A DNA stretch of 24,479 bases from a virus. The notes beneath the pieces are model-generated. The model was not told where the DNA came from. It ran no database searches and saw only the letters and a program-made list of their open reading frames with translations. Position numbers and translations under genes: made by a program. The stretch spans positions 1 to 24,479 of the IMG/VR virus record IMGVR_UViG_3300029787_000317. One strand, 5' to 3'. Positions 730 through 13,785 of the stretch are shown piece after piece (position 1 is the stretch's first letter; each line of letters starts with the position of its first letter).

Positions 730-1752
730 CTATGTCATCGCCAAAAGTAGACCGACACTCACTGGGCCAGTTGGCCCTTGTAATCCTTGGGCGCCGGTCT
801 CACCCTTGTCACCAGTCCGAATAAATTGGACCCGTATCGTATCTCCCCCACCGAACGTGCCGTTGCTGTCCACATGGGTCAGATTAACCTGGAGCCAGGC
901 GGTATTATCGGTACAGGCTCCGACCGTGTAGATGGCGAAGTTCGCCGGGGTGCCTTGCTCCACAAAAATCATATGGCCATTTAAGGTGGATGAACTGTCG
1001 TCCATGGTCATGATGTAATCAGAGATGTCCGGGTTGCCGGTACTATTGGTTACATTCGAAAAGGCAACGGCTGTGACGCTTCCTGGCGTTGCATGATTGA
1101 AACGCATCTCCCCGGTGCCAGGGTCCGCCATAGACGTGCTAACATCAAATCCGTAAGGGAACGCCACAGTATCCAAGATGGAGGCGCTGGCTGATGCAGC
1201 CGTGGCAGAGGACGCAGCGGCGGAAGCCGACGCAGCGGCAGCCGATACGCTGCCAGACGGCCCGTCTACTTCCTCTAATGCATTCGCGCTGGCATTCCAT
1301 TCCCAGCTTTTGTCAGCTGATGGCGCCGGGCAAAATGCGCTGACACTGGTTGCCGTTGAAACCGGGAGCTTGATGCAGCGGTCGATCTGCTCTTGCATTT
1401 GCTGCATCATCTGGGTGAGTTCGTCGTAAATCCTTTCGTGAGTACCGCCGCGATATTGATCCTGGTTTGTGAAATCATCATCCTGGAGTAAGGTCAATTT
1501 GCGGCGGATTGTGAGTGTCTGGCCAGAGGCGGGAGGGGTTCCCATTGTGACGTTTCCGCCGCTTGCAGTGCCGACACCCGAGACCGAATAGTGGGTTGTT
1601 TTAGTTTGGATAACCTCCGCACCTGTGGACGTGGTTGTTAGCACCACCTCCAGGTCATCGTCATCAAACACAAGGAATGTGTACGCGAATACTGTCGTAC
1701 TACCGTTTCCGGTATACGGGCCAGTCCGAGTTGTTTCACTAGATATAGGCAT
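730..1752 (-). CDS. Tail fibre with T7 gp17-like anchor and collagen-like tip
   Basis: About 340 residues from ATG at 1752. The same frame extends to a GTG at 1761, but AAGGA would lie only about 1-2 bases from that GTG, so the ATG (MPISSETTRTGPYTG) is preferred. Residues 1-130 match the virion-anchoring N-terminus of T7-type fibres: the GNGSTTVFAYTF motif, RRKLTLLQDDDFTNQ, and a helical stretch YDELTQMMQQMQEQI. Next comes an Ala/Ser-rich linker (DNA about 1170-1262). A beta domain follows, with the motif MADPGTGEMRFNH and the phrase DDSSSTLNG. The C-terminus is a short collagen-like Gly-X-Y run (GDKGETGAQGLQGPTGP) ending ten residues before the stop. No large receptor-binding domain follows, so this looks like a short fibre or an adaptor to which other proteins bind. 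The role is inferred from the N-terminal anchor and the position after the internal virion proteins. Confidence 0.85.
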   Translation of the reverse strand: MPISSETTRTGPYTGNGSTTVFAYTFLVFDDDDLEVVLTTTSTGAEVIQTKTTHYSVSGVGTASGGNVTMGTPPASGQTLTIRRKLTLLQDDDFTNQDQYRGGTHERIYDELTQMMQQMQEQIDRCIKLPVSTATSVSAFCPAPSADKSWEWNASANALEEVDGPSGSVSAAAASASAAASSATAASASASILDTVAFPYGFDVSTSMADPGTGEMRFNHATPGSVTAVAFSNVTNSTGNPDISDYIMTMDDSSSTLNGHMIFVEQGTPANFAIYTVGACTDNTAWLQVNLTHVDSNGTFGGGDTIRVQFIRTGDKGETGAQGLQGPTGPVSVGLLLAMT

Positions 1753-1823
1753 TATATCCACATCCTTGAGAATATCTCAACACTTATAGCACAAGACATT
1801 TTCCGCCGTCCATATTTGATCAT
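1752..1823 (-). CDS. Possible 23-residue bridging micro-ORF
   Basis: In the gap between the giant protein and the fibre, a frame reads MIKYGRRKMSCAISVEIFSRMWI. Its ATG overlaps the giant gene's TGA as ATGA. Its TAA overlaps the fibre's preferred ATG as TAATG. It therefore fills the gap exactly, in the style of couplings used throughout this operon. There is no strong ribosome-binding site of its own beyond purine-rich GAGGGAACGGAA inside the giant gene's last codons. It may be a real micropeptide or only a translational bridge that carries ribosomes to the fibre gene. No family is recognised. It could also be chance, since the frame is short. Confidence 0.3.
   Translation of the reverse strand: MIKYGRRKMSCAISVEIFSRMWI
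1766..1780 (-). promoter_or_regulatory. Small inverted repeat before the fibre gene
   Basis: TTGAGA and TCTCAA form a 6-bp inverted repeat around three bases, immediately upstream of the AAGGA sequence that would serve the fibre start at 1752. It could be a tiny hairpin modulating access to the ribosome-binding site, or chance. No function is established. Confidence 0.25.
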
Positions 1824-4800
1824 CTATTCCGTTCCCTCTTTTCTTGATAGCCCACAACAAACGCTTGATATGGGTCAAACCCTTGGGTCTGACCGTCCAT
1901 ATACCGCTCGAAATAATCAACAGTCCTGACAACCTGGCGCCCTGGCAGGCGGGCCAGATATGATAATAGCATCCAGGCGTTCTTAGTTTCCGAGCGAGAC
2001 AACTCGCCGTCTTTAAAGGCGCCTGATGTCTGCACACCCATTTCCCCCAACCGCATGAGAGGCGGGCCAGAAAAACCAAAGTCAGACATCATGCCTTGAA
2101 CCAATTCCCTGAGAATAGGCATGCCGCCAACTGCAAAAGATGCTGAGAGCTTCGCCACCCAGGCCCACCAACTCTCCTCCTTTTCCTCATCCGGGCCGCC
2201 GTCCAGAATATAGGACGACAACACCGCCGGTAAAACGGTGAGCATAAAAGTATGATAGCCAAATTTGATAGCCGCCTCGGCACTTGGCTTGCGCCCAAAC
2301 TTCTTACCTTCCTCAACTTGCATCTGATAATGAGCCGAGAAAAATGTAAAAAATGCCGTAAACAATCTTTTATATTCATGGCCCGTTTGGACCGAGGCCA
2401 GGTTCATTGGCTCCCCAGAGCCTTGCGTCCGGCGCACTTGCATATCTGCAAAGGCAATAGCATCGGGTTCATATGCAGGGACGCCGTCCACCGCACCATC
2501 CATGACCTTCTTATAAGCCCCAATCCAGGTGGGCATGGCCACTAAAAAATCCGCTTTTGAGACCATCCAAAAGGCGGCATCTCTAAATTGATCCATGGTG
2601 CCGCCAGGCTTCCTCCGAGATAATTGGTCTCTGGCGTTTTGATCAAAGGTGGCTGCCCTCGCTCTCATCATAGGGGACAATGTGAAGACATGCTCGGCGG
2701 TGAAACTTGGATCTGCAAAGGCTGTCTTTACACCGGCCATGGCGTATTTAGCGCCCAACTGGGAGACCGTATTGGTAAAACCAAACGGCTGCACTAAAAC
2801 GGTGCGGAGTGAGAAACCCATTTCCGCAATGGAAACACCAAACCTGGCATGGCGCATAAACTTCTCCCAATGATTAATGGGATCCACATCGCCAGCCGCC
2901 ACATGCTTGAGCCAGTTTTCTAGCTCCCGGATAGCGCCCTGGCCCCGCGTATTCGCAATGGCCTGACGCACACGCGGCGACTTCAAAACCTTGTTGACCT
3001 CGATGACCGCCTCACGATGGGTCACATCATGGATCACACCATCCAGATGCTGAAACAACGGGCTTAATGTCAGATCCAATTTTTGATCACGGTTTGCCAC
3101 GCGGGCTTTTGTAAATCCATGAGACGTTGCCGCATTAGATAGTGTGCCAGAGTAAAGCGCCTTCTCTTGTTCGGTCTGGGTTCGGTCGAAGGTCTTTATG
3201 TTTTCTTTGAAATCAAACTTGATGGGATAGTATCCGCCCCTGGCAACTTCGTATCCGTTGAGGATAACAGGATCCGCCTCAACCTTGGGGGGCGCAAACC
3301 CTGTGACCCGCTCCTCCACCGCTTTGATTTGTGGCCAGAAACTATCCACATGATCCCAGATCGCCTGGACAAACTGCCAATCCGTTTGATCTAATTCATT
3401 TAAGATGGCATCGATCTGAGCATCATTCCATCCAAAGCCATTGGTGAGCGTGTCGCGGTTATATGCATTGCCCGCATTAAGAGCGACTGCCAGGATCCGA
3501 TCCTTTGACATGGACGCATTGATGGCCGGGATGAAGGTCTTCTTGGTCCAAAAGTTTTTCTTCCGGCCCTCATAGATCTTCATAATTTCTTTCATGGCCA
3601 GCATATTATCGTACCGCATTTTCGCCGCAGCTGAGTTGGCTTCACTGATGGGCAACACCAGGTTCCGCCACATCGGGCCAAGTTCTTCGAAGCCATCCAG
3701 TTCCCGTGAGATGCTCTCTGCTTTTCTAAACACCGCCATCAACCCGCCAATAAAATCAGCGGCAGTGCGTTTCTTTTCATCAAAAAATTCTCGAGGCTTC
3801 CGCTCTTTATTGTTGGCGTAGATATGCTCTTCCAATTCAGTCATCATCTCATCGAAGATGCGCTTGGCCTCTTTGGAACTCTCCCGGCCCGACTTGGCCA
3901 TGGACTTTACCGCATCCCTCAAAAGCATGAATTGCTCGAAGGTCATTTCTTCTGAGTTTTTGGGATCCTCAATAATCTCCACCGGGATCACAATCCCGGC
4001 GCCAGTGTTCTCATTTAACTCTGTGGCCCAGGCATCGATGGCGGCCAATGTTCCGATGGCCTGGTCTGTATTAATGTCACTTGGACCCAGACCGTAGGCC
4101 GCCAGGACGGTTTGGATGTAACGCAAATGGTCACCATCCATGTTTGCTTTCCGAATATCAGTGATCTTCCGATAGCGGGCAAATTCTTTGCTGGCCTTAT
4201 CTCGGGCCGTGATGGCCTTTTGTGCCTCAATGAAGATGTAATGGTTCCACAGCTGCTGCCATTTATGTTCCGCAGCGGCGGCAAAGTCTCTCTTAGCAAT
4301 GGCAAGTTCAGCCCGCTTGGCGGCCTTGAGTTCAGCCTGGGAGAACTTATGCGGCGAGTTCAATTCCTTGATCGTCATTTGCTGGACATGGCGCCGGGCT
4401 GCTTCTCTCACCACAGCCGGTGGGATCCGTTGCATCTCTCGGGTATCCCTGGCGCTTGCCCTCTCGGCCCGACGCTGGAGCCTGGATGCTTCTTGCCTGG
4501 CCCGAGCGGCCTGGAACTCGGCAATGTTCTCACCACCTGGCGCGGCAGCCATTTGCTCTTCAGCATCGGTAATATCGTCGCGCCGATCCTGGACTGTCTG
4601 AGCGCCCTCATCGGCAACCGTCCGTTCAGCTGCCGTTGTGAACTCAGCGTCCGCGTCCATCTGGCGGAGCAGTCTTAATTCCTCCACCAGAAACTCACCA
4701 CGATCAGTATTGTGAAGCGCATCCATAGCCTCGGCGCGTATCCGTAGCGGATCCAGGCTCATGCCCATTTCCTCATCAAGCCGCTGTTTGGCCTCTAGAT

Positions 4801-7800
4801 CGATGGCGTCTTGCATCTTGGGATATTTGACAGACCTAGAGCCATCCTCATTGATGGTGACCTGGGCTGCTTGCATGATGTAGTCCAACATCTCAGAGCC
4901 AGACGAAAATCCAAACATGGCCGAGGCGGCCTCGATGGGAATGGATTTATCTTTGTCCGTTGTATAGATGCCGGTCCTCCCGCGACCAGGCAGAAGTGCC
5001 ATGCCGTCCTGGCCGATCAGATCAACCACATCATCTTTAAACAATTTGACCGCCACATGATCACCGGGCGTCTCGCGATCTAAATACTCACCAAACCGGA
5101 GATAGTTGATAGCCCGCCACCAGGGCCGGTCATTATATTCCTCGCGGACAGTGTCCTTCATCCGCTCCAGAGCCAGCATATACTCGCCAGTCTTTTCCTT
5201 TTTAATGTCTCTCAGGAGCCGTTTTAAGAGCCGCTGACGGGCATTCTCTACGCTCTCTTCATACTTGGCCTCATACCTCTCACGGGCCTGGTCGTTGGGG
5301 AAAATCTCTGGATTGAGGTTCATGCGATAGCTGTCTTGCATCTGCGCCATCGCAATCTCTTCATCGGTCGCCAAAAGCCGATCCATCACCGCCGTGATCT
5401 CTGGCGTCATCTCGACATTGAGATTTCTGATATCCTTGTAGATGGACATCAGCCAATCGGCAAAGCGCCGGAAGGCGCCCCGGAGTTCTTTGGTGGGCGC
5501 CTTGCCCTCAAAGAAATAAGCTTCCATGCCTCGCGCAAATTTTTCATGATGGACGGTCTCGATCTGGTCGAAGCTCTCTACGCCGAGCCAGTTTAGCAAT
5601 ATCTTATTGTCAGCCTCGAAAGCGCCAGCCGTTGTTGGATCGATAGCCATGTCGCGCATGACCTCGAGGAAGAAATGACCGCTCTCATGTAGGAAGGTCG
5701 AAACATCCGCTTGCTCAAATAAAGAGATGACCCGCTTGGCGCGATCAGGGGTTATGGAGAAGGATCCTTTGTGGGCTTCGTCGCCCTGGAAATGCCGTTC
5801 TCTCTCTTGTCTCTTCTGTAAATTTTGTTTAACCTGTGCGTTCGGGTTGTTGCTTAATATGGTCCGCCACGCGGGGAGGTTTATTCCACGCCGGGCTTCC
5901 ATCTCCTTAGCAGCAACCCGATCTACATACAGGACGTTTCCCCGCTCCGCTGACTTCTGCAAGTAAGCCTCGATGCCGGAACCCTCTTCATCCTTTGGAA
6001 TATTTTCCAGACGCCGGAACCCGTGAATTGTTTTGATGGCGCCGGTCTTCGGATTGAACCCGACTTTGACATTCTCCCCTTCCCCATCGGTTAAGTTGAG
6101 AACTGCCTGGACATCCATCACGTTGCCATTCTGATCTGTGCGCTGATAGGTCAGAATTGGATCCGCCAGGTGAAAGAGTATTTCTTTCATATTGCGCGGC
6201 GTGAGCGAGTGCTTGTCTTCTAAGACTTTCCGCAACACAGCCTGTGAGACTTGGATGTTTTCGCCCTCGATGCCGGACATGCGAAGCACCTCGGGAAGAT
6301 CACCAACCACAATACTTGGTGGGATTTTATCCCGGCGCTCTTTGTCAGTGGCATTAAGCCAGGCATCGAGCCGGTCGTTAAATGCGTTCTGTTGATCGTT
6401 GGCGGGGTTGGTTGATTGCGCCTGGAAAAAGACGCTGGCGTCAGAGAAGCTTCCCTCTAATCCTCCAAGGGTAGCTGGATCGAAGGCGGCAACTCCGCTT
6501 CCAGTTCCGCCGGGAGCGGTTCCTCGATCCCGTTCGGATAGGCTATCTCGAGATAATTCGCTCTCGTAACTGCTATCTCTAAGCGGAGCATCGATGAAAT
6601 TATCGGATCCGCTTTGTCCATACCACTCAGGGTCATTGATGCCTCCGGCTTCGCCATTTATCTGTTCCCTTGCATCATCAATAGAGATTTTTCCATCAGC
6701 ATGATCATACCATATCTGAGAGATTGTGTCTTTATTTTGTTGATTAGATTTATAAGCGGGAGTGAATAAACCGCGCACCGCTTCCCAAGTGATCGACTGC
6801 ATTTCACGGGGCAAGATACCGCGCTCCGCAGCTGCGCGGCGATAAGCTTCTGCAAAAATCCCATATGTTCCTTGAACACCCGTCAGCGCAGATGACCTTG
6901 CATTAGGCATACCTTTTCCGGCACTTGTGGCTAGGTTATGCGCCACTTCGATATCCTTGCCCGCCAATGGCTGTAATAGCGCAGCGGCAACCGCGTGAGT
7001 ATCAATGGTCACGTCACCGGCATCTGCATTTGGCGAGAGGATGTTGTTATAAAAATTACGGACCTTGTGCTTGGCGCCCATACGCAATGTGATGTTCTCA
7101 TAGCTTGGGTCATCAATGACCGAGATGGCCTTGGCTATCTCACCAAACCCACCCCAAGATGTTTTTGATTTTTCTCCCACGGTCTCCAGGTCGATGGCCA
7201 GCGCATCTTGGGCGTTGTTCCTGGCCCAGTCCGCAAACTCACCTTCCGGTGTGACCACCCGATAGTTTCGGGAGTTGTAAGCCTCGTCATAAATGCGAAG
7301 CCAAATTGCCTTGAGATGAGGATCATCAAGTTCCCTAAGCCTTTTGCCTTTAACTTCATCCCAATACTTCTGATTTTTCTCAGTGACCTTGCCTGTCTTC
7401 TCATCGACCATAACTTTGGTCGCGGCAATTTGTTCCATGGCCGCATCGTATTTGTGATCCTGGGCATAAGTCATAATGTCCAGAACTCTCTCCGCCAGGT
7501 TTACATTTTTAAACCAGTCCATTTGTGGCGACAGAGCAGCAAGTACACCAGCCACTGATCGATCAGGAATGCCGTAAAGCTCTGACCATCTGTTGGTCAA
7601 TGCCCGAGCGCCATCGTACCAAAGATGGCTTCTCTCTTTGACTTCATTTGGTACTTGGTCATGAAGCCACAAAAGATTGTCCACCGATTGCTGAATGATG
7701 TTTTCGAAAACCTCTTCCGGTGTTTCGTTTTCTTTCTTTGGCTTATAGCTGGGATAGTTCTGGATCAGACCGGCATGATGTTCTGCCATGGCTGGATCAA

Positions 7801-10800
7801 GTAAAGATTGCTCCAGGTCAATAATCAGGTTTTCGGCTACAGGATCTTCTGTTGCATTGACGCCGGTTGGTAGCCGGGTGCTAATCCGGTCAGCGTGGTT
7901 CGCGACACTTTGAAAAAGCATCATGGGATCTTCGCGATTATATGCCCCAGTGTTCGCGACACTTTTTACCTGGCCTGGATCGAACGCAACCCAGCTTTCG
8001 GATCCTTTATCCTCGACTTTATTTTCATATACAAAGCCGTCATAGCCTCTGGACTTGAGCGCATCCACTAGCTCTTGCATGGTTGCACCAGCTTGGTATC
8101 GCACTTTCACGCCAGCCTTATTCACTTGGAAATACATATCTTCCATGCTGCTTGCGCTGGCATCATCGACAATTCGAAGCGGGTTTTGAATTGAGAGATA
8201 AACCGGGATAATTCGTTCACCTTCTCTTTGTATTCCTTGCGGATCCCGACCCACCATCCGGGCCAGGCGATCCGTTGGGCGGCGTTCACGCTGATCCTGG
8301 ATCCGCTCGTTGGCCGCCTCCGCTGTCCCAAAATGAGCAAAAGGAAAAAACTGATCAAACTCACCATCACGTCCTGTGCGACTTGTGCCATGATAAACAA
8401 CCAGCGGGTCTCCGTTTTCATCAACAACCTTGCTGTCACCGAACCATTGTTCAAACGCCGGGCTGCCAGGTTGGAACATGGGATCCGCTTCCGTTTCGGC
8501 TGCGCGGATCTGCGCCTTGATGGTCTCATTATCTTGATTAATATCGATGCCCATCATGTCGAGGGCTTCGCGGAACCGTTCCACCGATTGCTCGAAGTCT
8601 TGGATCAGGTCATCTTGATCCGGTGTTCTGAGCGGCAGCCCCCGTGTCTCATTATCCAGCGCAGCCAGCAACGCATCCCGATCAACATAGCCGCCACCCT
8701 CTTCGGTGGTTGGCAGCATGCCGAGGATCTCGGCGGTGCCAGGATCGATGGTATCCCCATCGGTCATGCCTGTTGTTTTCTTAAACAGACCCCGTGCCGT
8801 CGATGGGGTGACCCCCATGGCATTGAGTTCGGCTGCCAGGTTCGACCCAATACGGACGCCGCCCGCGCTTCTCAGATAATCAATGAGCGGCGTATCTGAG
8901 AGGCCAGGCACTTGGCGCCCGGCTCTGGCGCGATTGATTTGCACATCCAGCTGAGTATCAGTCCGAGGCATAACCTCGGGTCTGGAGACAAATGACGGCT
9001 CCCTCTCCAGGAATAATTCATAAGGATCTCTACCAGCCCTGGCGCCGAGGGTTCTAAATGCTGCCCGCCAAACAGAAGCGACGGCCCTGGCATCTGCATC
9101 ACCGAGACGGCCTGTGCTTTTAATAGCGCCAAACACACTTTCAAATATTTGGTTTTCGCTGGATGCTGTATCGGTAAAACCGTCTTGCTCCATCTGAGTA
9201 ATCAGCGTGGCAAAATTTTCATTGGCATGCTCATCGAGCATGTCCAGTTCGCGGTTCGTCAAATCATCGGTGTGGAATTTAACGTCCCGTTGTAGACCAG
9301 GGATATGCTCTGCGATGCCATCGATGGCGACGAAATTTTCCACCGGGACTTCCAAGTAATGTCCGGCATTGCGGACATCCTCCAGCTGTTCGGCGACACC
9401 CATCGCCTGATACATCTCTTCTGGATCGATGCCCTGGCTCTGGAAATATTCTGTGGCGCCCGCCTCATCGATGAACACAGTTTCTGAGCCGGTCTCTTCG
9501 GCCAATGTCCTGAGAGCTTCTTTGAGGGTCTCCGGGTCACGCTCTTTTGTTTTGGTGTTTTCCGCCTCATCAACGATGTTGGATAATCTCTCAACGCCAT
9601 CATCAGTCTCTTGCCGCCGCCGGTCGAGATCTTCCTTGACCAGTTGCTGATCCCTCTGACCGCGACGGCGCTCCAGTAATGCTCTCGGGGCCGCCGTCGT
9701 AACAGCAAGCGTACCACCAACACCGGCACCAATGATGCCCGCATCTCTGAGCCGGGACAACGCCTGGCCCATGGTCATCTTTTCATCGAGAATGCCAATA
9801 TCGTATCCAATATCGACAGCTTCCACGAACACCTCTTGTAGACCCTCGGCCCCGATGGATCTCAACGTGCGGCCCATGAGAGATCCGCCGTCTCTTGTTA
9901 GAATGCCGAGCGGGATCCGTTCTGTGGCAAATTCTACAGCCCCTTTAAAAAGAGCCTCTGCCGTTGCCTGGTCCGGGCTGAACCCCCGTCGCCGGGCCTC
10001 CGCATAGGATTGCCCAAATATCTGGCCACCTAAAATGGCCTGACCAGCAACAGGATTTCTTGTGATCAGACTGGCCAGTACCGATGGGGCCATCTGGATA
10101 GTGCCGCGTGTAATCTCCGATATGTAAAAAGGAATTGAGCCTTGTTGAAAGTTCGGCTGCTCTGCCGCAAATTGTTTATGCCCTGCCTCTGCGAGTTCAC
10201 GGGATCTACGGGTTAGCTGGATTGACCCTTCGCTCTCGACATCCTTTCTGGCTTTCTCATAAGCAGAAGCATCTGCCCCTAATTGTTCCTTCCGCAATTG
10301 AATCAATTCTTCGCGGAGCGGGCCTCGCTCTTCGATACCAACGGTCTGGGAAAATCTTGTCCAAACGCTTTGCTCTTCAGCAATCTGGTTTTCAAGTTGC
10401 TTGATCCGAGCATTCCGGGCCGAGGGATCCGTTTTATATTTTAATGCATGACGCTCCAAGCTTGCCCGATAGGCTGAACTGTTCTCCAGTATCGAGGTGC
10501 CAAGACCACCAATTTGCTGCCTTGCCACACCAGCAAGGGTGCCAGGTAGGGATGTAAAAATCGCGGACCAATCGTCTGGCTTGCTATCGGCAATCGATTT
10601 TCGAAGCCGCATTAAATCCGTAATGCGTTTGAGCGCCGGGGCATCCTCTTTCGATATGACAACATTCTTTTCCTTGTTGAAATATTTCATGAGGTTTGGA
10701 TGGGACGTGACCGTCTTTCGGAAGACTTTCTTAAAAGCCTCATCCTTCACCAAGGTGGGATCCGCCCGGACCATACTCTCGGGCAGTTCGAGTTCGCGGG

Positions 10801-10993
10801 CGCCCTGGACGCCTTGAGAATATTCCTCTGGATTGACATCTCGCGTGTCATCCACGCGGGCATCCATCATGCCCTCGCGTTCTCGAAGAAACTGCTTCGC
10901 CAGGTTTTGTTCTTCGTCCCTCTCCAAATCCCGATCAGGATCTTGATTGAGAGAAGGATTTTCTTCGAGAAATTGTCGAGCCAGATCGTCCAT
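1820..10993 (-). CDS. Giant 3057-residue internal virion / polyvalent protein (gp16 position)
   Basis: The last of four genes matching the T7 gp13-14-15-16 order, but over twice the length of T7 gp16. Visible order: charged N-terminus; glycine- and alanine-rich hydrophobic segments near residues 285-445; helical polyvalent-type regions to about 840; an ADP-ribosyltransferase-like domain (842-1028); a DUF7178-like domain (about 1100-1410); a MuF-C-like domain (about 1525-1740); a zincin with H1769-E-S-G-H1773; a long charged helical region (about 1886-2480); a conserved block around FVQAIWDHVDSFWPQI (about 2530); and hydrophobic segments near 2873-2970. Known family behaviour: gp16-like proteins are ejected and help form the channel across the envelope, and polyvalent proteins carry effector domains delivered with phage DNA. 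Inferred: both roles are fused here. I see no lysozyme or transglycosylase domain like that of T7 gp16. The start shares TAATG with the preceding stop. Confidence 0.9.
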   Translation of the reverse strand: MDDLARQFLEENPSLNQDPDRDLERDEEQNLAKQFLREREGMMDARVDDTRDVNPEEYSQGVQGARELELPESMVRADPTLVKDEAFKKVFRKTVTSHPNLMKYFNKEKNVVISKEDAPALKRITDLMRLRKSIADSKPDDWSAIFTSLPGTLAGVARQQIGGLGTSILENSSAYRASLERHALKYKTDPSARNARIKQLENQIAEEQSVWTRFSQTVGIEERGPLREELIQLRKEQLGADASAYEKARKDVESEGSIQLTRRSRELAEAGHKQFAAEQPNFQQGSIPFYISEITRGTIQMAPSVLASLITRNPVAGQAILGGQIFGQSYAEARRRGFSPDQATAEALFKGAVEFATERIPLGILTRDGGSLMGRTLRSIGAEGLQEVFVEAVDIGYDIGILDEKMTMGQALSRLRDAGIIGAGVGGTLAVTTAAPRALLERRRGQRDQQLVKEDLDRRRQETDDGVERLSNIVDEAENTKTKERDPETLKEALRTLAEETGSETVFIDEAGATEYFQSQGIDPEEMYQAMGVAEQLEDVRNAGHYLEVPVENFVAIDGIAEHIPGLQRDVKFHTDDLTNRELDMLDEHANENFATLITQMEQDGFTDTASSENQIFESVFGAIKSTGRLGDADARAVASVWRAAFRTLGARAGRDPYELFLEREPSFVSRPEVMPRTDTQLDVQINRARAGRQVPGLSDTPLIDYLRSAGGVRIGSNLAAELNAMGVTPSTARGLFKKTTGMTDGDTIDPGTAEILGMLPTTEEGGGYVDRDALLAALDNETRGLPLRTPDQDDLIQDFEQSVERFREALDMMGIDINQDNETIKAQIRAAETEADPMFQPGSPAFEQWFGDSKVVDENGDPLVVYHGTSRTGRDGEFDQFFPFAHFGTAEAANERIQDQRERRPTDRLARMVGRDPQGIQREGERIIPVYLSIQNPLRIVDDASASSMEDMYFQVNKAGVKVRYQAGATMQELVDALKSRGYDGFVYENKVEDKGSESWVAFDPGQVKSVANTGAYNREDPMMLFQSVANHADRISTRLPTGVNATEDPVAENLIIDLEQSLLDPAMAEHHAGLIQNYPSYKPKKENETPEEVFENIIQQSVDNLLWLHDQVPNEVKERSHLWYDGARALTNRWSELYGIPDRSVAGVLAALSPQMDWFKNVNLAERVLDIMTYAQDHKYDAAMEQIAATKVMVDEKTGKVTEKNQKYWDEVKGKRLRELDDPHLKAIWLRIYDEAYNSRNYRVVTPEGEFADWARNNAQDALAIDLETVGEKSKTSWGGFGEIAKAISVIDDPSYENITLRMGAKHKVRNFYNNILSPNADAGDVTIDTHAVAAALLQPLAGKDIEVAHNLATSAGKGMPNARSSALTGVQGTYGIFAEAYRRAAAERGILPREMQSITWEAVRGLFTPAYKSNQQNKDTISQIWYDHADGKISIDDAREQINGEAGGINDPEWYGQSGSDNFIDAPLRDSSYESELSRDSLSERDRGTAPGGTGSGVAAFDPATLGGLEGSFSDASVFFQAQSTNPANDQQNAFNDRLDAWLNATDKERRDKIPPSIVVGDLPEVLRMSGIEGENIQVSQAVLRKVLEDKHSLTPRNMKEILFHLADPILTYQRTDQNGNVMDVQAVLNLTDGEGENVKVGFNPKTGAIKTIHGFRRLENIPKDEEGSGIEAYLQKSAERGNVLYVDRVAAKEMEARRGINLPAWRTILSNNPNAQVKQNLQKRQERERHFQGDEAHKGSFSITPDRAKRVISLFEQADVSTFLHESGHFFLEVMRDMAIDPTTAGAFEADNKILLNWLGVESFDQIETVHHEKFARGMEAYFFEGKAPTKELRGAFRRFADWLMSIYKDIRNLNVEMTPEITAVMDRLLATDEEIAMAQMQDSYRMNLNPEIFPNDQARERYEAKYEESVENARQRLLKRLLRDIKKEKTGEYMLALERMKDTVREEYNDRPWWRAINYLRFGEYLDRETPGDHVAVKLFKDDVVDLIGQDGMALLPGRGRTGIYTTDKDKSIPIEAASAMFGFSSGSEMLDYIMQAAQVTINEDGSRSVKYPKMQDAIDLEAKQRLDEEMGMSLDPLRIRAEAMDALHNTDRGEFLVEELRLLRQMDADAEFTTAAERTVADEGAQTVQDRRDDITDAEEQMAAAPGGENIAEFQAARARQEASRLQRRAERASARDTREMQRIPPAVVREAARRHVQQMTIKELNSPHKFSQAELKAAKRAELAIAKRDFAAAAEHKWQQLWNHYIFIEAQKAITARDKASKEFARYRKITDIRKANMDGDHLRYIQTVLAAYGLGPSDINTDQAIGTLAAIDAWATELNENTGAGIVIPVEIIEDPKNSEEMTFEQFMLLRDAVKSMAKSGRESSKEAKRIFDEMMTELEEHIYANNKERKPREFFDEKKRTAADFIGGLMAVFRKAESISRELDGFEELGPMWRNLVLPISEANSAAAKMRYDNMLAMKEIMKIYEGRKKNFWTKKTFIPAINASMSKDRILAVALNAGNAYNRDTLTNGFGWNDAQIDAILNELDQTDWQFVQAIWDHVDSFWPQIKAVEERVTGFAPPKVEADPVILNGYEVARGGYYPIKFDFKENIKTFDRTQTEQEKALYSGTLSNAATSHGFTKARVANRDQKLDLTLSPLFQHLDGVIHDVTHREAVIEVNKVLKSPRVRQAIANTRGQGAIRELENWLKHVAAGDVDPINHWEKFMRHARFGVSIAEMGFSLRTVLVQPFGFTNTVSQLGAKYAMAGVKTAFADPSFTAEHVFTLSPMMRARAATFDQNARDQLSRRKPGGTMDQFRDAAFWMVSKADFLVAMPTWIGAYKKVMDGAVDGVPAYEPDAIAFADMQVRRTQGSGEPMNLASVQTGHEYKRLFTAFFTFFSAHYQMQVEEGKKFGRKPSAEAAIKFGYHTFMLTVLPAVLSSYILDGGPDEEKEESWWAWVAKLSASFAVGGMPILRELVQGMMSDFGFSGPPLMRLGEMGVQTSGAFKDGELSRSETKNAWMLLSYLARLPGRQVVRTVDYFERYMDGQTQGFDPYQAFVVGYQEKRERNR
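2085..2380 (-). other. C-terminal membrane-active segments of the giant protein
   Basis: Residues about 2873-2970 contain three hydrophobic stretches: LFTAFFTFFSAHY, FMLTVLPAVLSSYIL, and WWAWVAKLSASFAVGG followed by MPILRELV. They are separated by charged loops, including a DEEKEE cluster. This suits insertion in, or close contact with, the host inner membrane during ejection. The membrane role is inference from hydrophobicity and gene position. Confidence 0.6.
5339..5761 (-). other. Zincin metallopeptidase domain in the giant protein
   Basis: Residues about 1745-1885. The motif FLHESGHFFLE gives the zinc-binding H1769-E1770-x-x-H1773. A later helix HEKFARGMEAYFFEGKAP supplies E1817 or E1824 as a candidate third ligand, and the domain closes with LLATDEEI. 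This arrangement is the common zincin module of phage polyvalent proteins. Possible tasks are self-processing of the giant protein, cutting a host protein, or helping penetrate the envelope; the sequence does not decide. All three zinc-ligand positions have plausible residues, so the domain looks active. Confidence 0.75.
5774..6421 (-). other. MuF C-terminal-like domain in the giant protein
   Basis: Residues about 1525-1740, starting just after an FFQ boundary (Q1524). The segment VLRKVLEDKHSLTPRNM (H1595) leads to a LADPILTYQ motif, then a strand of the form QAVLNLTDGEGENVKVGF, then LYVDRVAAKEM. This follows the pattern of the phage MuF C-terminal domain, in which helices and a 'DPi..y/f' strand precede 'vl.l.d..g..i.v'. 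That domain has been placed with BECR-type RNase or effector folds. The catalytic residues cannot be assigned confidently from sequence alone. Confidence 0.55.
6734..7696 (-). other. DUF7178-like domain, possibly HhH-GPD glycosylase-related
   Basis: Residues about 1100-1420. Key segments are WYDGARALTNRWSELYGI, GVLAALSPQMDWFKN (S1155), GAKHKVRNFYNNIL (K1308, K1310) and VTIDTHAVAAAL (D1331). This is the pattern of the phage DUF7178 family. The order of motifs also parallels endonuclease III-type HhH-GPD glycosylases: a first helix with L-S-x-Q, a G-x-x-K helix-hairpin-helix, and a V-D-T-H catalytic aspartate. The DUF7178 match is recognised from memory. The glycosylase link is my inference. 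Confidence 0.5.
7910..8470 (-). other. ADP-ribosyltransferase-like domain (ART-PolyVal type)
   Basis: Residues about 842-1028. The domain opens FEQWFGDSKVVDENGDPLV and continues VVYHGTS (H868). It closes with YDGFVYENK, WVAFDPGQVKSV and NTGAYNREDPMMLFQ. This start and end are the hallmarks of the 'ADP-ribosyltransferase in polyvalent proteins' family. In such domains the early His and later polar residues are expected to bind NAD. The target, host protein or nucleic acid, cannot be deduced. Confidence 0.75.
9659..10141 (-). other. N-terminal hydrophobic region of the giant protein
   Basis: Residues about 285-445 hold alternating hydrophobic and small-residue segments, such as QMAPSVLASLITRNPVAGQA, AILGGQIFGQSYAEARRRG and GIIGAGVGGTLAVTTAAP. 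Similar stretches occur near the N-terminus of other large phage polyvalent proteins. A membrane-inserting or channel-lining role is plausible but is inferred only from composition. Confidence 0.5.
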
Positions 10994-12765
10994 TAGTAAC
11001 CTGACCGCGCATATTCGACTGCGAGATGAAACTGTTGGATAAGCTCTGGCGTGAGGTCTTTCTTATAATATTGGCTATTTGGATCCTTAATGGCCTCTTG
11101 TAATGTGGCCGCATAATCATCAACAAGGCTTTGCGGCACACCCTCAATCGGGGGCCGTTCGTAAACGGGTGTCCCGCCATAGCCAGGTGTGTCGATCTCG
11201 ATAACCATCCGGGTCAACAGTTTATTGACATGGTCCGTTGTGAGCGCCTTGCCATTATTGGCTTCGGTCATTTCGCGGAGTTCATCGGAAACCGCTTCTC
11301 TAAATGTCACCCTCTTTGGATTACCGGGCTTCCAACGCATTTTGTCTCGCATGTAACTATTGATCATGTTTGACTGGGTGTACTCACCTGTCCACCTGGC
11401 ATCCTTTGTTGCTTGAGCTTTTTGCGCTTGGGCATCCGCCTTGGCCGCGTTGGCTCTCGCAATGCGCCAATTGTTGAAGGCTGCGTCATACTCGCCATCA
11501 GGAAGCTTCGAGTTAAATTCGGCTTGAAATTCTATAGCGGTCATTCTGGCGAGACTGCCATCGTCCCACATGATATCGATCTTTGCTTTGGCTGCTCTAA
11601 CAGTTTTGTCGGGGATTATATTTTTCCAGTTAGGGTTTGCTTGGCGCTTACGATAATCTTCTGCAATCTTACGATATGTCGCTGCCTTGTGGGCGCCGAG
11701 TAAAGCCACTTCACTGGGCGTCGGCTCCTCTCCATTAGCTGCACGGGCAGACGCAGATTGCTCCGCCTGGTCTTTATCATAGTCTTTTTGCGCTTGCCCA
11801 ACCGCAATGCGTGACTTGAGCCGCGTTCGGGCTGCATCCTTAACCTCGATAGGAGCTTTCGATCTATCAATCGCTGCAAATTGTTCATCTGGTTTTTTGG
11901 ATGCCTTAAACGCCTGAACCGCCAATGCCTCGGCTGCTTCATCCACCGATGCCTTTTTGGTGGACGCATCAAGGGCGCTCACATTATCCGCATCGATCTC
12001 GCTTCGGTGTTCGGCAAGATATTCCTTTGCAGCTGTACCGTTCCCGGCATCCATCATGCCTTTAATAATTTTTTCATGGACCTCAGACCTGGCATCCCGG
12101 ACACGCTTATCGATTACCGCCTTGTCTTCTTTTTTCTTAGGATCAAAACCTTCTAACGCGGAGAGATCGCGCACCGTCTTTTCCAACTCGCGCATAGATT
12201 GGCTATGGATCCGTTGATCATTGCTTGGAAGGTTCGGATCATATCCAGAAATCGATGCTTCCTTGGCCCTCTCCACTTTGTCGGTAATCAATGCCGTCTT
12301 ATATTTCTTCACCTCGGCATCTTCATGGGATGCACTATTAGACCGGATCCGCCGCCGTCTGGCCAAAACATGCTGGCCAATACGTTGGGTCATCCGGGCA
12401 TTGCCTTTAAATCGATCCAATACCCTCTGAGATTGTGTATCGTAATCGGCCAGCGTGTCCGTCGTCAGGTTCTGAGCGCCGCCCAGCAAAGCCTTACTCC
12501 GCGCTTCACGATAGCCATCCTCAACAGTATCCAGTTCCCGCTCGATCTCAAGCAGCTGGATGGTCTCGGCTTCGTCGCGCTTCTGCTCAAATATTGAGGT
12601 AGCCGCCTGGGCGCCTTTACTTACCGCCTGGGACGCTTGCCCGGCCAGGCGGCCCTGTGCCGCACCGAACATATCAAGTGTTGTGTTGGCTTGCTGTTCG
12701 CCGCCTGAGACGGCCCTAGAGGTAACCTGGGGGCCATCGAGAGTTGGGACTGTTATTCCTGCCAT
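10993..12765 (-). CDS. Internal virion protein, gp15 position
   Basis: 590 residues, hydrophilic and mostly helical, with long charged stretches (for example YREARSKALLGGAQ near residue 85 and QRVLDRFKGNARMTQRIG near 110). There is no signal peptide or catalytic motif. It sits between a gp14-like protein and the giant gp16-position protein, as T7 gp15 does (T7 gp15 is about 750 residues). Known role of the position: a core protein ejected into the periplasm that forms part of the trans-envelope tube. The sequence itself is too diverged for me to claim direct homology to T7 gp15. The start lies 3 bases after the previous stop and the stop overlaps the next start (TAATG), so production is probably coupled to its partners. 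Confidence 0.75.
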   Translation of the reverse strand: MAGITVPTLDGPQVTSRAVSGGEQQANTTLDMFGAAQGRLAGQASQAVSKGAQAATSIFEQKRDEAETIQLLEIERELDTVEDGYREARSKALLGGAQNLTTDTLADYDTQSQRVLDRFKGNARMTQRIGQHVLARRRRIRSNSASHEDAEVKKYKTALITDKVERAKEASISGYDPNLPSNDQRIHSQSMRELEKTVRDLSALEGFDPKKKEDKAVIDKRVRDARSEVHEKIIKGMMDAGNGTAAKEYLAEHRSEIDADNVSALDASTKKASVDEAAEALAVQAFKASKKPDEQFAAIDRSKAPIEVKDAARTRLKSRIAVGQAQKDYDKDQAEQSASARAANGEEPTPSEVALLGAHKAATYRKIAEDYRKRQANPNWKNIIPDKTVRAAKAKIDIMWDDGSLARMTAIEFQAEFNSKLPDGEYDAAFNNWRIARANAAKADAQAQKAQATKDARWTGEYTQSNMINSYMRDKMRWKPGNPKRVTFREAVSDELREMTEANNGKALTTDHVNKLLTRMVIEIDTPGYGGTPVYERPPIEGVPQSLVDDYAATLQEAIKDPNSQYYKKDLTPELIQQFHLAVEYARSGY

Positions 12766-12768
12766 GAT

Positions 12769-13320
12769 CTAACTCTTGAAAGTGTACCATTTCGAGGCCA
12801 CATCAGCCGCCCCACCGAATACGTTCGTTGCACCAGCCAGGAGGGGGCTTTGACCGGCTGCACTTGTGTCATAAAGAATGCTTTGATTGGTTGCGTTCTG
12901 GGCATTCACCCGCTGAGTAAACGCCTCGCGTTCCGCATTGGACCGGATGGTCAGCGTATCTAGCTCACCCAGTTCCGCCGTATCTGCCAGGATATCGATG
13001 GCATCATCTTCGTTGGCATCAAATCCAGATGTGGCCAGGAGCGATCTTTGTCGGCCCATAAAATTAGATATCTTGAGCCGGTGCCTGGCCTCTTCCCGGC
13101 TGCCACGATCAAGGGCATCCTCTGCCTTCCAGTTGGCCACCTCCGCGTTATTGCGGGCCACCTGGGCCTGGTATTTGGCTTGGGCCTTCTGAGACTTACT
13201 TTGCTGATAAGCCGAATACCCACCGAGACCAGCGGACGCCACACTTGAGATGACAGCCACATTGGCCGCCACATTGGCCGCAGCCATGGCGGGACCGGCA
13301 GCTATGGCAAAAACACACAT
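12769..13320 (-). CDS. Internal virion protein, gp14-like
   Basis: 183 residues, close to T7 gp14 (196). It begins Met-Cys followed by a small-residue hydrophobic stretch (VFAIAAGPAMAAANVAANVA), then helical Gln/Ala-rich sequence AYQQSKSQKAQAKYQAQVAR. T7 gp14 also starts Met-Cys with an Ala-rich hydrophobic N-terminus followed by Gln/Ala-rich helices. In T7 this protein is ejected and sits in the outer membrane as the outer end of the DNA conduit. The motif MGRQRSLLATSGFD in the middle is typical of podoviral gp14-type proteins. The start directly abuts the previous stop (TAGATG), with a GGAGG site just upstream. Confidence 0.8.
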   Translation of the reverse strand: MCVFAIAAGPAMAAANVAANVAVISSVASAGLGGYSAYQQSKSQKAQAKYQAQVARNNAEVANWKAEDALDRGSREEARHRLKISNFMGRQRSLLATSGFDANEDDAIDILADTAELGELDTLTIRSNAEREAFTQRVNAQNATNQSILYDTSAAGQSPLLAGATNVFGGAADVASKWYTFKS

Positions 13321-13785
13321 CTATCGCCTCCACTCAAATTTTCTGAAGGCCTGGCCAAAAGGGCCATGAGGCCGAGGCTCTGACATCTCAAACCCCAACC
13401 ATGTTAGCCACCGCTTCGCCGAGACGTTATCGTCATAGACATGGTTGTATAGGTAATCGTAGCCGTCCTTCATGTACTTGTTGAGATAATACCAACTGTG
13501 TCTCAAAAATGGAATAGCGGCTCTGTCCACTTTATCTGTACCCACCAGCCAGGGCTGCCCTGTTTTGTCTGTAATATCGGCCAAACAAACGCCGCCCACC
13601 GTCACCAGTTCATCATCCATAAACCCCGTCCAGCAATGGGTGGATAGCTGATGGCTGATATCCAGGCACTGACGAAAGGGCATGCCGGTCTGATACCATA
13701 TCTCAGTACGATCAATTTCCCTGGCTTGCTCTTCCATCATATCCAAATGCTCTTCAGTCGTTGTTATAATCTCAACTTTCGACAT
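13321..13785 (-). CDS. T7 gp13-like virion protein with GNAT-type fold
   Basis: 154 residues (T7 gp13 is 138). Opening SKVEIITTTEEHLDMM is followed by IDRTEIWYQTG, CWTGFMDDELVTVGGVCL, and a helical C-terminal half ending YNHVYDDNVSAKRWLTWLGF. This pattern resembles the T7 gp13 / DUF2833 family: a GNAT-like core with a 'gf.dg.lva..Gv' strand pair and a final '..n..a.rwl..lGF' segment. In GNAT enzymes the last motif lies near the acyl-CoA site, but gp13 acts in virion assembly or core formation and no substrate is known. The start overlaps the end of the large tail gene by 14 bases, and the stop abuts the gp14-like start. Confidence 0.8.
   Translation of the reverse strand: MSKVEIITTTEEHLDMMEEQAREIDRTEIWYQTGMPFRQCLDISHQLSTHCWTGFMDDELVTVGGVCLADITDKTGQPWLVGTDKVDRAAIPFLRHSWYYLNKYMKDGYDYLYNHVYDDNVSAKRWLTWLGFEMSEPRPHGPFGQAFRKFEWRR

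Follow-up and report, generated by a model that had tools for sequence, protein, structure and literature searches.

What is a 3,057-residue protein for, when its gene occupies the place that gp16 holds in phage T7? T7 gp16 is packaged in the head and ejected into the host. The gene in question lies on the minus strand (1820..10993) of IMG/VR virus record IMGVR_UViG_3300029787_000317, positions 1-24,479, and this whole stretch of 24.5 kb is called the window here. An earlier sequence-only reading described its product as a giant protein in which an ejection channel and a set of anti-host enzymes are one molecule. Comparison with about 170 relatives shows that the protein has fixed ends and a fixed zincin metallopeptidase, together with an exchangeable middle slot for unrelated effectors. 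By analogy with known phage proteins, it can be taken as a short-tailed-phage protein that is probably carried in the virion and pushed into the bacterium, and we consider it likely that the giant is a delivery protein made of a fixed chassis and an exchangeable cargo slot.

The giant is encoded in one frame with an ATG start and zero internal stops, as the sequence-only reading stated. A chance frame is excluded because the C-terminal part (1,059 residues) matches 42 GenBank phages at 22-33% identity, with E down to 1e-122. The matched phages include Bordetella BPP-1 (Bbp10), Xanthomonas CP2, Pseudomonas AF and Caulobacter Jess A, as well as Vibrio, Cobetia and cyanobacterial phages. The features of the protein, including a tripeptide tag at each cargo junction, are as follows:

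1820..10993, minus strand: giant polyvalent ejection-slot protein, 3,057 amino acids (aa); single open reading frame, relatives in 42 GenBank phages
8504..10993, minus strand: N-terminal chassis module, residues 1-830; in 123 complete relatives it ends at residue 695+-71
10601..10855, minus strand: LPD22 domain, residues 47-131; Pfam E 3.9e-5
10064..10120, minus strand: weakly hydrophobic N-terminal stretch, residues 292-310; family mean hydropathy 0.88
8471..8479, minus strand: junction tag MFQ, residues 839-841, between chassis and ADP-ribosyltransferase (ART); from the sequence
7952..8422, minus strand: ADP-ribosyltransferase ART-PolyVal, residues 858-1014; Pfam E 1.8e-14
7910..7918, minus strand: junction tag LFQ, residues 1026-1028, between ART and DUF7178; similarity to relative L179 begins at residue 1029
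6614..7888, minus strand: DUF7178, residues 1036-1460, probable HhH-GPD DNA glycosylase; Pfam E 9.7e-25, K1310 and D1331 invariant
6422..6430, minus strand: junction tag FFQ, residues 1522-1524, between DUF7178 and MuF_C; similarity to relative L119 begins at residue 1519
5918..6220, minus strand: MuF_C (PBECR-like), residues 1592-1692; Pfam E 3.6e-5 for the isolated segment, common to L119
5786..5794, minus strand: junction tag HFQ, residues 1734-1736, between payload and zincin; from the sequence
5279..5740, minus strand: zincin metallopeptidase, residues 1752-1905, HExxH at 1769-1773; HExxH in 170 of 177 relatives
1859..4426, minus strand: C-terminal core, residues 2190-3045, phrog_9880; PHROGs E 1.5e-296, AlphaFold2 (AF2) model pLDDT 87
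2207..2263, minus strand: conserved hydrophobic, transmembrane-like segment, residues 2911-2929; family mean hydropathy 1.6

The multi-enzyme content claimed by the sequence-only reading is borne out by these matches. ART-PolyVal and DUF7178 (residues 1102-1197 and a second stretch) both score above the curated Pfam cut-offs, and the zincin HExxH lies within a block, STFLHExGH...E, which all 14 aligned relatives share unchanged. The MuF-C-like domain was also found, at a score below its curated cut-off (E 0.0015 in the whole protein). As for the hydrophobic regions proposed at both ends, the C-terminal one (2911-2929) is clear and the N-terminal ones are weak, with a family mean hydropathy of 0.64 for the second of them (422-440). 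An LPD22 domain below cut-off had been missed; in relatives it occupies the same place with Pfam E up to 3.5e-25. Two domains above cut-off, MuF_C, LPD22 and a zincin motif are thus found in one polypeptide, whose gene lies among late virion genes, from gp15-like to fibre, and this is the make-up of the polyvalent class of phage proteins (Iyer et al. 2017; PMC5512222).

The sequence-only reading had asked which modules come and go in related phages, and the comparison shows that the chassis stays while the slot modules are exchanged. An alignment of 14 GenBank relatives retrieved 562 viral and 154 genomic loci, 160 of which were kept. When profiles of the N-terminal module, the zincin and the core were applied, all 123 complete proteins had the same order. 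In these proteins the N-terminal module ends at residue 695+-71, the distance from zincin to core is 212+-55 aa and the core is 867+-55 aa long, whereas the slot between the N-terminal module and the zincin spans 0 to 2,051 aa, and total length follows slot length with r=0.97. Because the patterns used to find viral loci included the zincin motif, its occurrence there, and that of HExxH in 170 of 177 relatives, is partly a product of selection; the motif is invariant in the 14 proteins, which were retrieved mainly via the C-terminus.

When complete proteins with this arrangement were scanned over their whole length, effector families fell in the slot and LPD22 in the N-terminal module. Pfam searches on 129 slot segments found ART (36), PBECR/MuF_C (about 28), LPD3 (16), GNAT (about 10), DUF7178 (7) and GGDEF (4), with RadC, zeta toxin, RelA/SpoT, ParB and others as rarer contents. 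The GGDEF (diguanylate cyclase) domains come from the slots of four relatives and RelA/SpoT from one, which raises the possibility that virions deliver second-messenger enzymes. Layouts other than slot-before-zincin also exist, since in Rhodobacteraceae phage LS06-2018-MD07 (L018:3403-12555) the zincin comes first and is followed by ART, methyltransferase and DUF7178.

Cargo and chassis have separate histories, because the DUF7178 of the window is far closer than the chassis to that of relatives L179 and L180, and relative L019 shows the opposite. The DUF7178 domains of L179 and L180 are 53% and 52% identical to that of the window, while their N-terminal modules reach only 27-30% and the L180 core 26%. 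In both relatives the order is reversed, with DUF7178 preceding ART. The same contrast between cargo and chassis is found in L199 (45 vs 31% identity) and L252 (42 vs 25%). In L019, zincin and core are 39% identical to the window, and neither the window's ART nor its DUF7178 is present.

Within the cargo, DUF7178 is probably a divergent HhH-GPD DNA glycosylase/apurinic-apyrimidinic (AP) lyase. The middle domains had been claimed as enzymes, and the predicted fold of DUF7178 is compact, of high confidence (AlphaFold model, pLDDT 89, pTM 0.87) and probably that of an enzyme, so for this domain the claim was not refuted. In the window and 46 relatives the motifs S-P-Q-x-D-W, H-K-x-R and T-x-D-T-H are invariant, and K1310 and D1331 are kept in 47 of 47 sequences. 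EndoIII has an LSxQ turn first, then a catalytic Lys behind the hairpin and finally the catalytic Asp of VDTH, which is the order of these motifs too. The HhH-GPD identity was predicted from the motifs before the structural comparisons, in which the Foldseek match of highest probability was Pa-AGOG, an 8-oxoguanine DNA glycosylase of the HhH-GPD superfamily (probability 0.30, TM-score 0.39 on the target). Phages also encode distant homologues as solo proteins of about 200 aa, which Pfam confirms as DUF7178; depositors named that of Synechococcus phage S-CRES3 “N-glycosylase/DNA lyase” and that of Streptomyces phage Triumph “glycosylase”. In hhalign comparisons the solo forms line up with EndoIII/MutY so that the Lys and Asp positions coincide; P is 0.006 for shallow alignments and 0.017 for deeper ones, and the score of the latter beats 60 of 60 column-shuffled decoys. 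The likeness to EndoIII, MutY and AGOG thus consists of the Lys/Asp motif in register and a helix-hairpin-helix-like pair in the model; the differences are an unconserved LPGVG hairpin, a long insertion in the giant-protein form and the lack of a significant profile or fold score.

We give limited credence to a rival reading in which DUF7178 is a helical domain of some other kind, for instance one with a structural or DNA-binding role. Foldseek against PDB has zero matches below E 1e-3 (the best relevant match has E 0.9), Pfam has zero HhH-GPD matches among DUF7178 members even at E 10, and hhalign with the long-form alignment gives zero signal against EndoIII, the solo short forms alone aligning. 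What speaks for a glycosylase instead is the Lys/Asp register in two profile comparisons, the identity of the top-probability Foldseek match and the names given by two depositor groups.

Of 299 cellular genomes sampled from the phylum to which the Pseudomonas genome used belongs, one has DUF7178, as part of a 3,606-aa frame, so the domain is uncommon as a host gene there. It is also present in many phage proteins of 600-900 aa (L181-L258; L017:7876-10383, Roseobacter phage CRP-738 gp40). The CRP-738 gene lies one gene from the portal gene, suggesting that this cargo has another carrier linked to the head.

For the other cargo, the ART-PolyVal profile scores 55.1 bits against a cut-off of 31.2. 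The His of strand 1 is kept (YHGT), and the acidic residue lies within FDPGQVKS. The position of the usual strand-2 Tyr is Phe (HFGT), as in several relatives, so that ART activity of the window protein is likely, not certain, as judged from these motifs. MuF_C, a nuclease-like domain with an RNase-like fold, is supported by L119, which shares it together with the zincin.

Each cargo junction of the window bears one of the tripeptides MFQ, LFQ, FFQ or HFQ, and several BLAST similarity blocks begin or stop at these tags. LFQ was counted over 150 non-redundant relatives, with the expectation taken from shuffled sequence. In the 60 residues before the zincin HExxH it is enriched 21-fold (39 observed, 1.8 expected), and elsewhere in the slot it was observed 29 times (6.8 expected), compared with no enrichment in the core (7 observed, 17.6 expected). 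The ART domains trail into a Q-ended tag in 22 of 22 aligned cases, mostly FDPxxPxILxQ (P.IL.Q). Because the tags separate unrelated domains and a peptidase adjoins them, the LFQ and ILxQ tags are likely zincin processing sites, although they could equally be the scar of module joining. The zincin itself has an invariant Glu as third ligand (alignment position 89, residue 1817), downstream of HExxH.

The sequence-only reading placed the gene in the exact position of T7 gp16, and this is confirmed, with a gp15-like gene on one side and a fibre gene with a gp17-type N-terminus on the other. Nearly all genes of the window are on the minus strand in podovirus order: small and large terminase subunits, portal, scaffold/protease, major capsid protein, gp11 and gp12 (the two tail tubular proteins), gp13-like, gp14-like, the 590-aa gene, the giant and the fibre. 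The neighbours of the giant are:

730..1761, minus strand: tail fibre with gp17-type N-terminus (T7 type); phrog_1640 and phrog_13893
10993..12765, minus strand: gp15-position protein, 590 aa; no domain found, relatives' counterpart carries transglycosylase
12769..13320, minus strand: gp14-like internal virion protein; phrog_418, E 1.4e-23
13321..13785, minus strand: gp13-like internal virion protein; phrog_308, E 4.6e-39

In the family, a gp14-like gene is upstream at 98 of 122 loci and a gp15-like gene adjacent at 89 of 122 (the loci with enough upstream sequence), and a gp17-type fibre gene is downstream at 91 of 142. Since these neighbours recur across relatives, the gp16-slot position is a family trait.

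Position is where the firm likeness to T7 gp16 ends. The core had been called gp16-type, a description that we could not sustain: neither its sequence nor its fold matches T7 gp16 significantly, and what remains is a weak colinear alignment of 120 residues around RGGYYPxxYD / HKGTYVPHVYD. Single-sequence BLAST of the core against T7 gp16 gave nothing convincing. A 14-sequence core hidden Markov model (HMM) scores T7 gp16 above 400 shuffles, around the RGGYYPxxYD-like stretch, whereas with a 67-sequence HMM the score is not above all shuffles; hhalign of the core against 16 gp16 sequences is weak (P 0.012-0.055, core controls 0.18-0.67). With Foldseek the core model has zero PDB matches, and in the viral library BFVD its matches are large polyvalent proteins of phages, with identities as low as 12%; the T7 gp16 fold is not among the PDB or BFVD matches listed. 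Membership of the core in the T7 gp16 family is thus not established, the alignments being weak and a fold match absent. The core works in the same place as T7 gp16 and may be a very distant relative of it. Unlike T7 gp16, which also follows gp15 and precedes gp17, the giant has no transglycosylase domain, is more than twice as long and contains effector enzymes and a zincin.

Among relatives the transglycosylase goes with the gene next door: hhalign pairs the T7 gp16 transglycosylase domain with the gp15-position gene family (P 6e-6), and the BPP-1 gene at that position carries a transglycosylase. This fits the reported mobility of the domain, which can move between gp15 and gp16 (PMC8954989). 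Domain scans did not find it in the 590-aa protein of the window (10993-12765), and no peptidoglycan hydrolase was found in the structural cassette of the window.

The fusion of effectors to such a protein had been thought possibly new. It is not, because the same chassis is found in BPP-1 Bbp10, Carin1 gp32 and Caulobacter and Limnohabitans phages, and the concept of polyvalent proteins was published in 2017 (PMC5512222); the chassis carries other payloads in about 170 further loci. In PHROGs, residues 2159-3044 match phrog_9880. Members of this family (BPP-1 Bbp10, Xanthomonas CP2 ORF24, Pseudomonas AF gp16, Caulobacter Jess A gp039c, Cobetia Carin1 gp32 and OANV1 gp16, a podovirus protein of 2,986 aa; PMC9239159) share with the window giant LPD22, the zincin, the C-terminal core (27-33% identity) and the gene position before the tail fibre gene; over about 1,320 aa the giant is 28.7% identical to Bbp10. 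The cargo differs, with PBECR1 in Bbp10, PBECR5 in Carin1 gp32 and ART in Jess A, and DUF7178 was not found in any of these six proteins. An ART payload on the same chassis is also present in Caulobacter and Limnohabitans phages. The family seems to reach archaeal viruses, as a virus assigned to Methanomicrobiales (Caudoviricetes sp. vir555, L016:6152-12076) has the same core, zincin and gp14-like neighbour. Limnohabitans phage DC33 (L011, PQ492659.1) is given a GenBank lineage of Inoviridae (filamentous), yet its podovirus cassette is present, which looks like a taxonomy error.

Like the published polyvalent proteins, the giant combines unrelated enzyme domains and a zincin in one late-gene phage protein, and the published domain list covers ART, PBECR/MuF_C, LPD22 and zincin (PMC5512222). 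It differs from them in its DUF7178/glycosylase payload and in the fixed chassis-and-slot layout measured here; the word “glycosylase” and the LFQ motif are absent from the text of that paper. A further comparison is the N4 virion RNA polymerase (vRNAP, gp50), an ejected podovirus giant that has an enzyme in its centre, a zincin, an N-terminal region for ejection and a C-terminal region for packaging (PMC5512222). Its payload is an RNA polymerase, and no similarity to the window giant was detectable in the part compared. Searches of PDB sequences with the whole giant, the core profile or DUF7178 gave no significant relatives.

Delivery, which the sequence-only reading gave as the likely purpose, is supported by gene position and by the precedent of T4 Alt, P1 DdrB and N4 vRNAP, which are packaged and delivered (PMC5512222), and of T7 gp16. 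In such a process the giant would be packaged in the head together with the gp13-, gp14- and gp15-like proteins and would exit via the tail before or along with the DNA, its hydrophobic ends perhaps assisting the crossing of the envelope. The ART, DUF7178 and MuF_C cargo would act in the cytoplasm ahead of phage transcription, and the built-in zincin would cut the FQ-type tags at the cargo junctions and free the enzymes. As a whole, a general protein-delivery chassis, with tag-bracketed enzymes slotted in, carried by the tail and freed by the zincin, and including here a delivered DNA glycosylase/AP-lyase, is a tentative picture that we rate as somewhat unlikely.

Several points weigh against the delivery account. 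In the open-access papers searched, no virion proteomics was found for the window phage or any relative. The union of channel and payload in one molecule is plausible, yet these results do not show that the core forms a channel, and its comparison with solved ejection proteins gave zero significant matches, so the channel role is not demonstrated. No cleavage at LFQ or ILxQ tags is known, and the LFQ tag was discovered in the same data that were used for counting. The zincin is present also where the slot is empty, and cargo release is therefore not its sole job. The ART of the window is without the usual strand-2 tyrosine, the MuF_C match below cut-off is weak, and the evidence for the glycosylase call is moderate and statistically insecure.

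Other explanations accept part of this and differ on the payload. The giant could be packaged and ejected with a payload that serves to protect and mend the phage DNA as it enters or to counter host defence, and not to modify host proteins for take-over; DUF7178 as a probable base-excision enzyme, the RadC, ParB and methyltransferase domains that the slot or the family also contains and the precedent of the P1 Dar proteins (PMC5512222) all point that way. We consider it unlikely all the same, as the commonest payloads (ART, PBECR nucleases, GNAT), zeta toxin and RelA/SpoT target proteins, RNA or nucleotides. It is more doubtful still that the payload is removed by processing, either ahead of head assembly or in its course, and never delivered, for example being used in assembly or kept in the producing cell. 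The zincin does adjoin the slot, and P1 DdrB is cut before packaging, but N4 vRNAP, although equipped with a zincin of this kind, enters the virion uncut (PMC5512222), and diverse cell-directed enzymes in a late structural gene suit delivery better.

A role in lysis or as a cell-wall enzyme comes from names: relatives in Jess A, BL94 and Mel-JY33 are annotated in this way in GenBank, and OANV1 gp16 was likened to a lysin (PMC9239159). GenBank passes on the labels “lysin”, “lysis protein” and “crystallin beta/gamma motif” for Bbp10 and relatives, and Pfam scans of family members found none of the domains so named. Scans of the giant proteins covered here revealed no peptidoglycan hydrolase, BPP-1 has its transglycosylase in the gene beside the giant, at the gp15 position, and relatives have separate amidase, holin or endolysin genes; for these reasons a lysin is highly improbable and was rejected.

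In summary, delivery from the virion by a fixed chassis with exchangeable cargo is the reading we favour. Polyvalent proteins are already known (PMC5512222), also at this position (BPP-1 Bbp10; OANV1 gp16, PMC9239159). As far as the literature searched shows, three things are new, namely a payload of the DUF7178/glycosylase kind, the rule of chassis and slot as measured here and the tag at the junctions, and a DNA glycosylase/AP-lyase is a payload type previously undescribed for polyvalent virion proteins. If delivery and self-release are true, the chassis ends, the zincin and the junction tags would let injected podovirus effectors be read from genomes, and a large set of early-acting anti-bacterial enzymes would be opened to study. 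This would also explain the giant podovirus proteins now filed as “lysin” or “crystallin motif”, and would assign a function to DUF7178, a domain common in phages.

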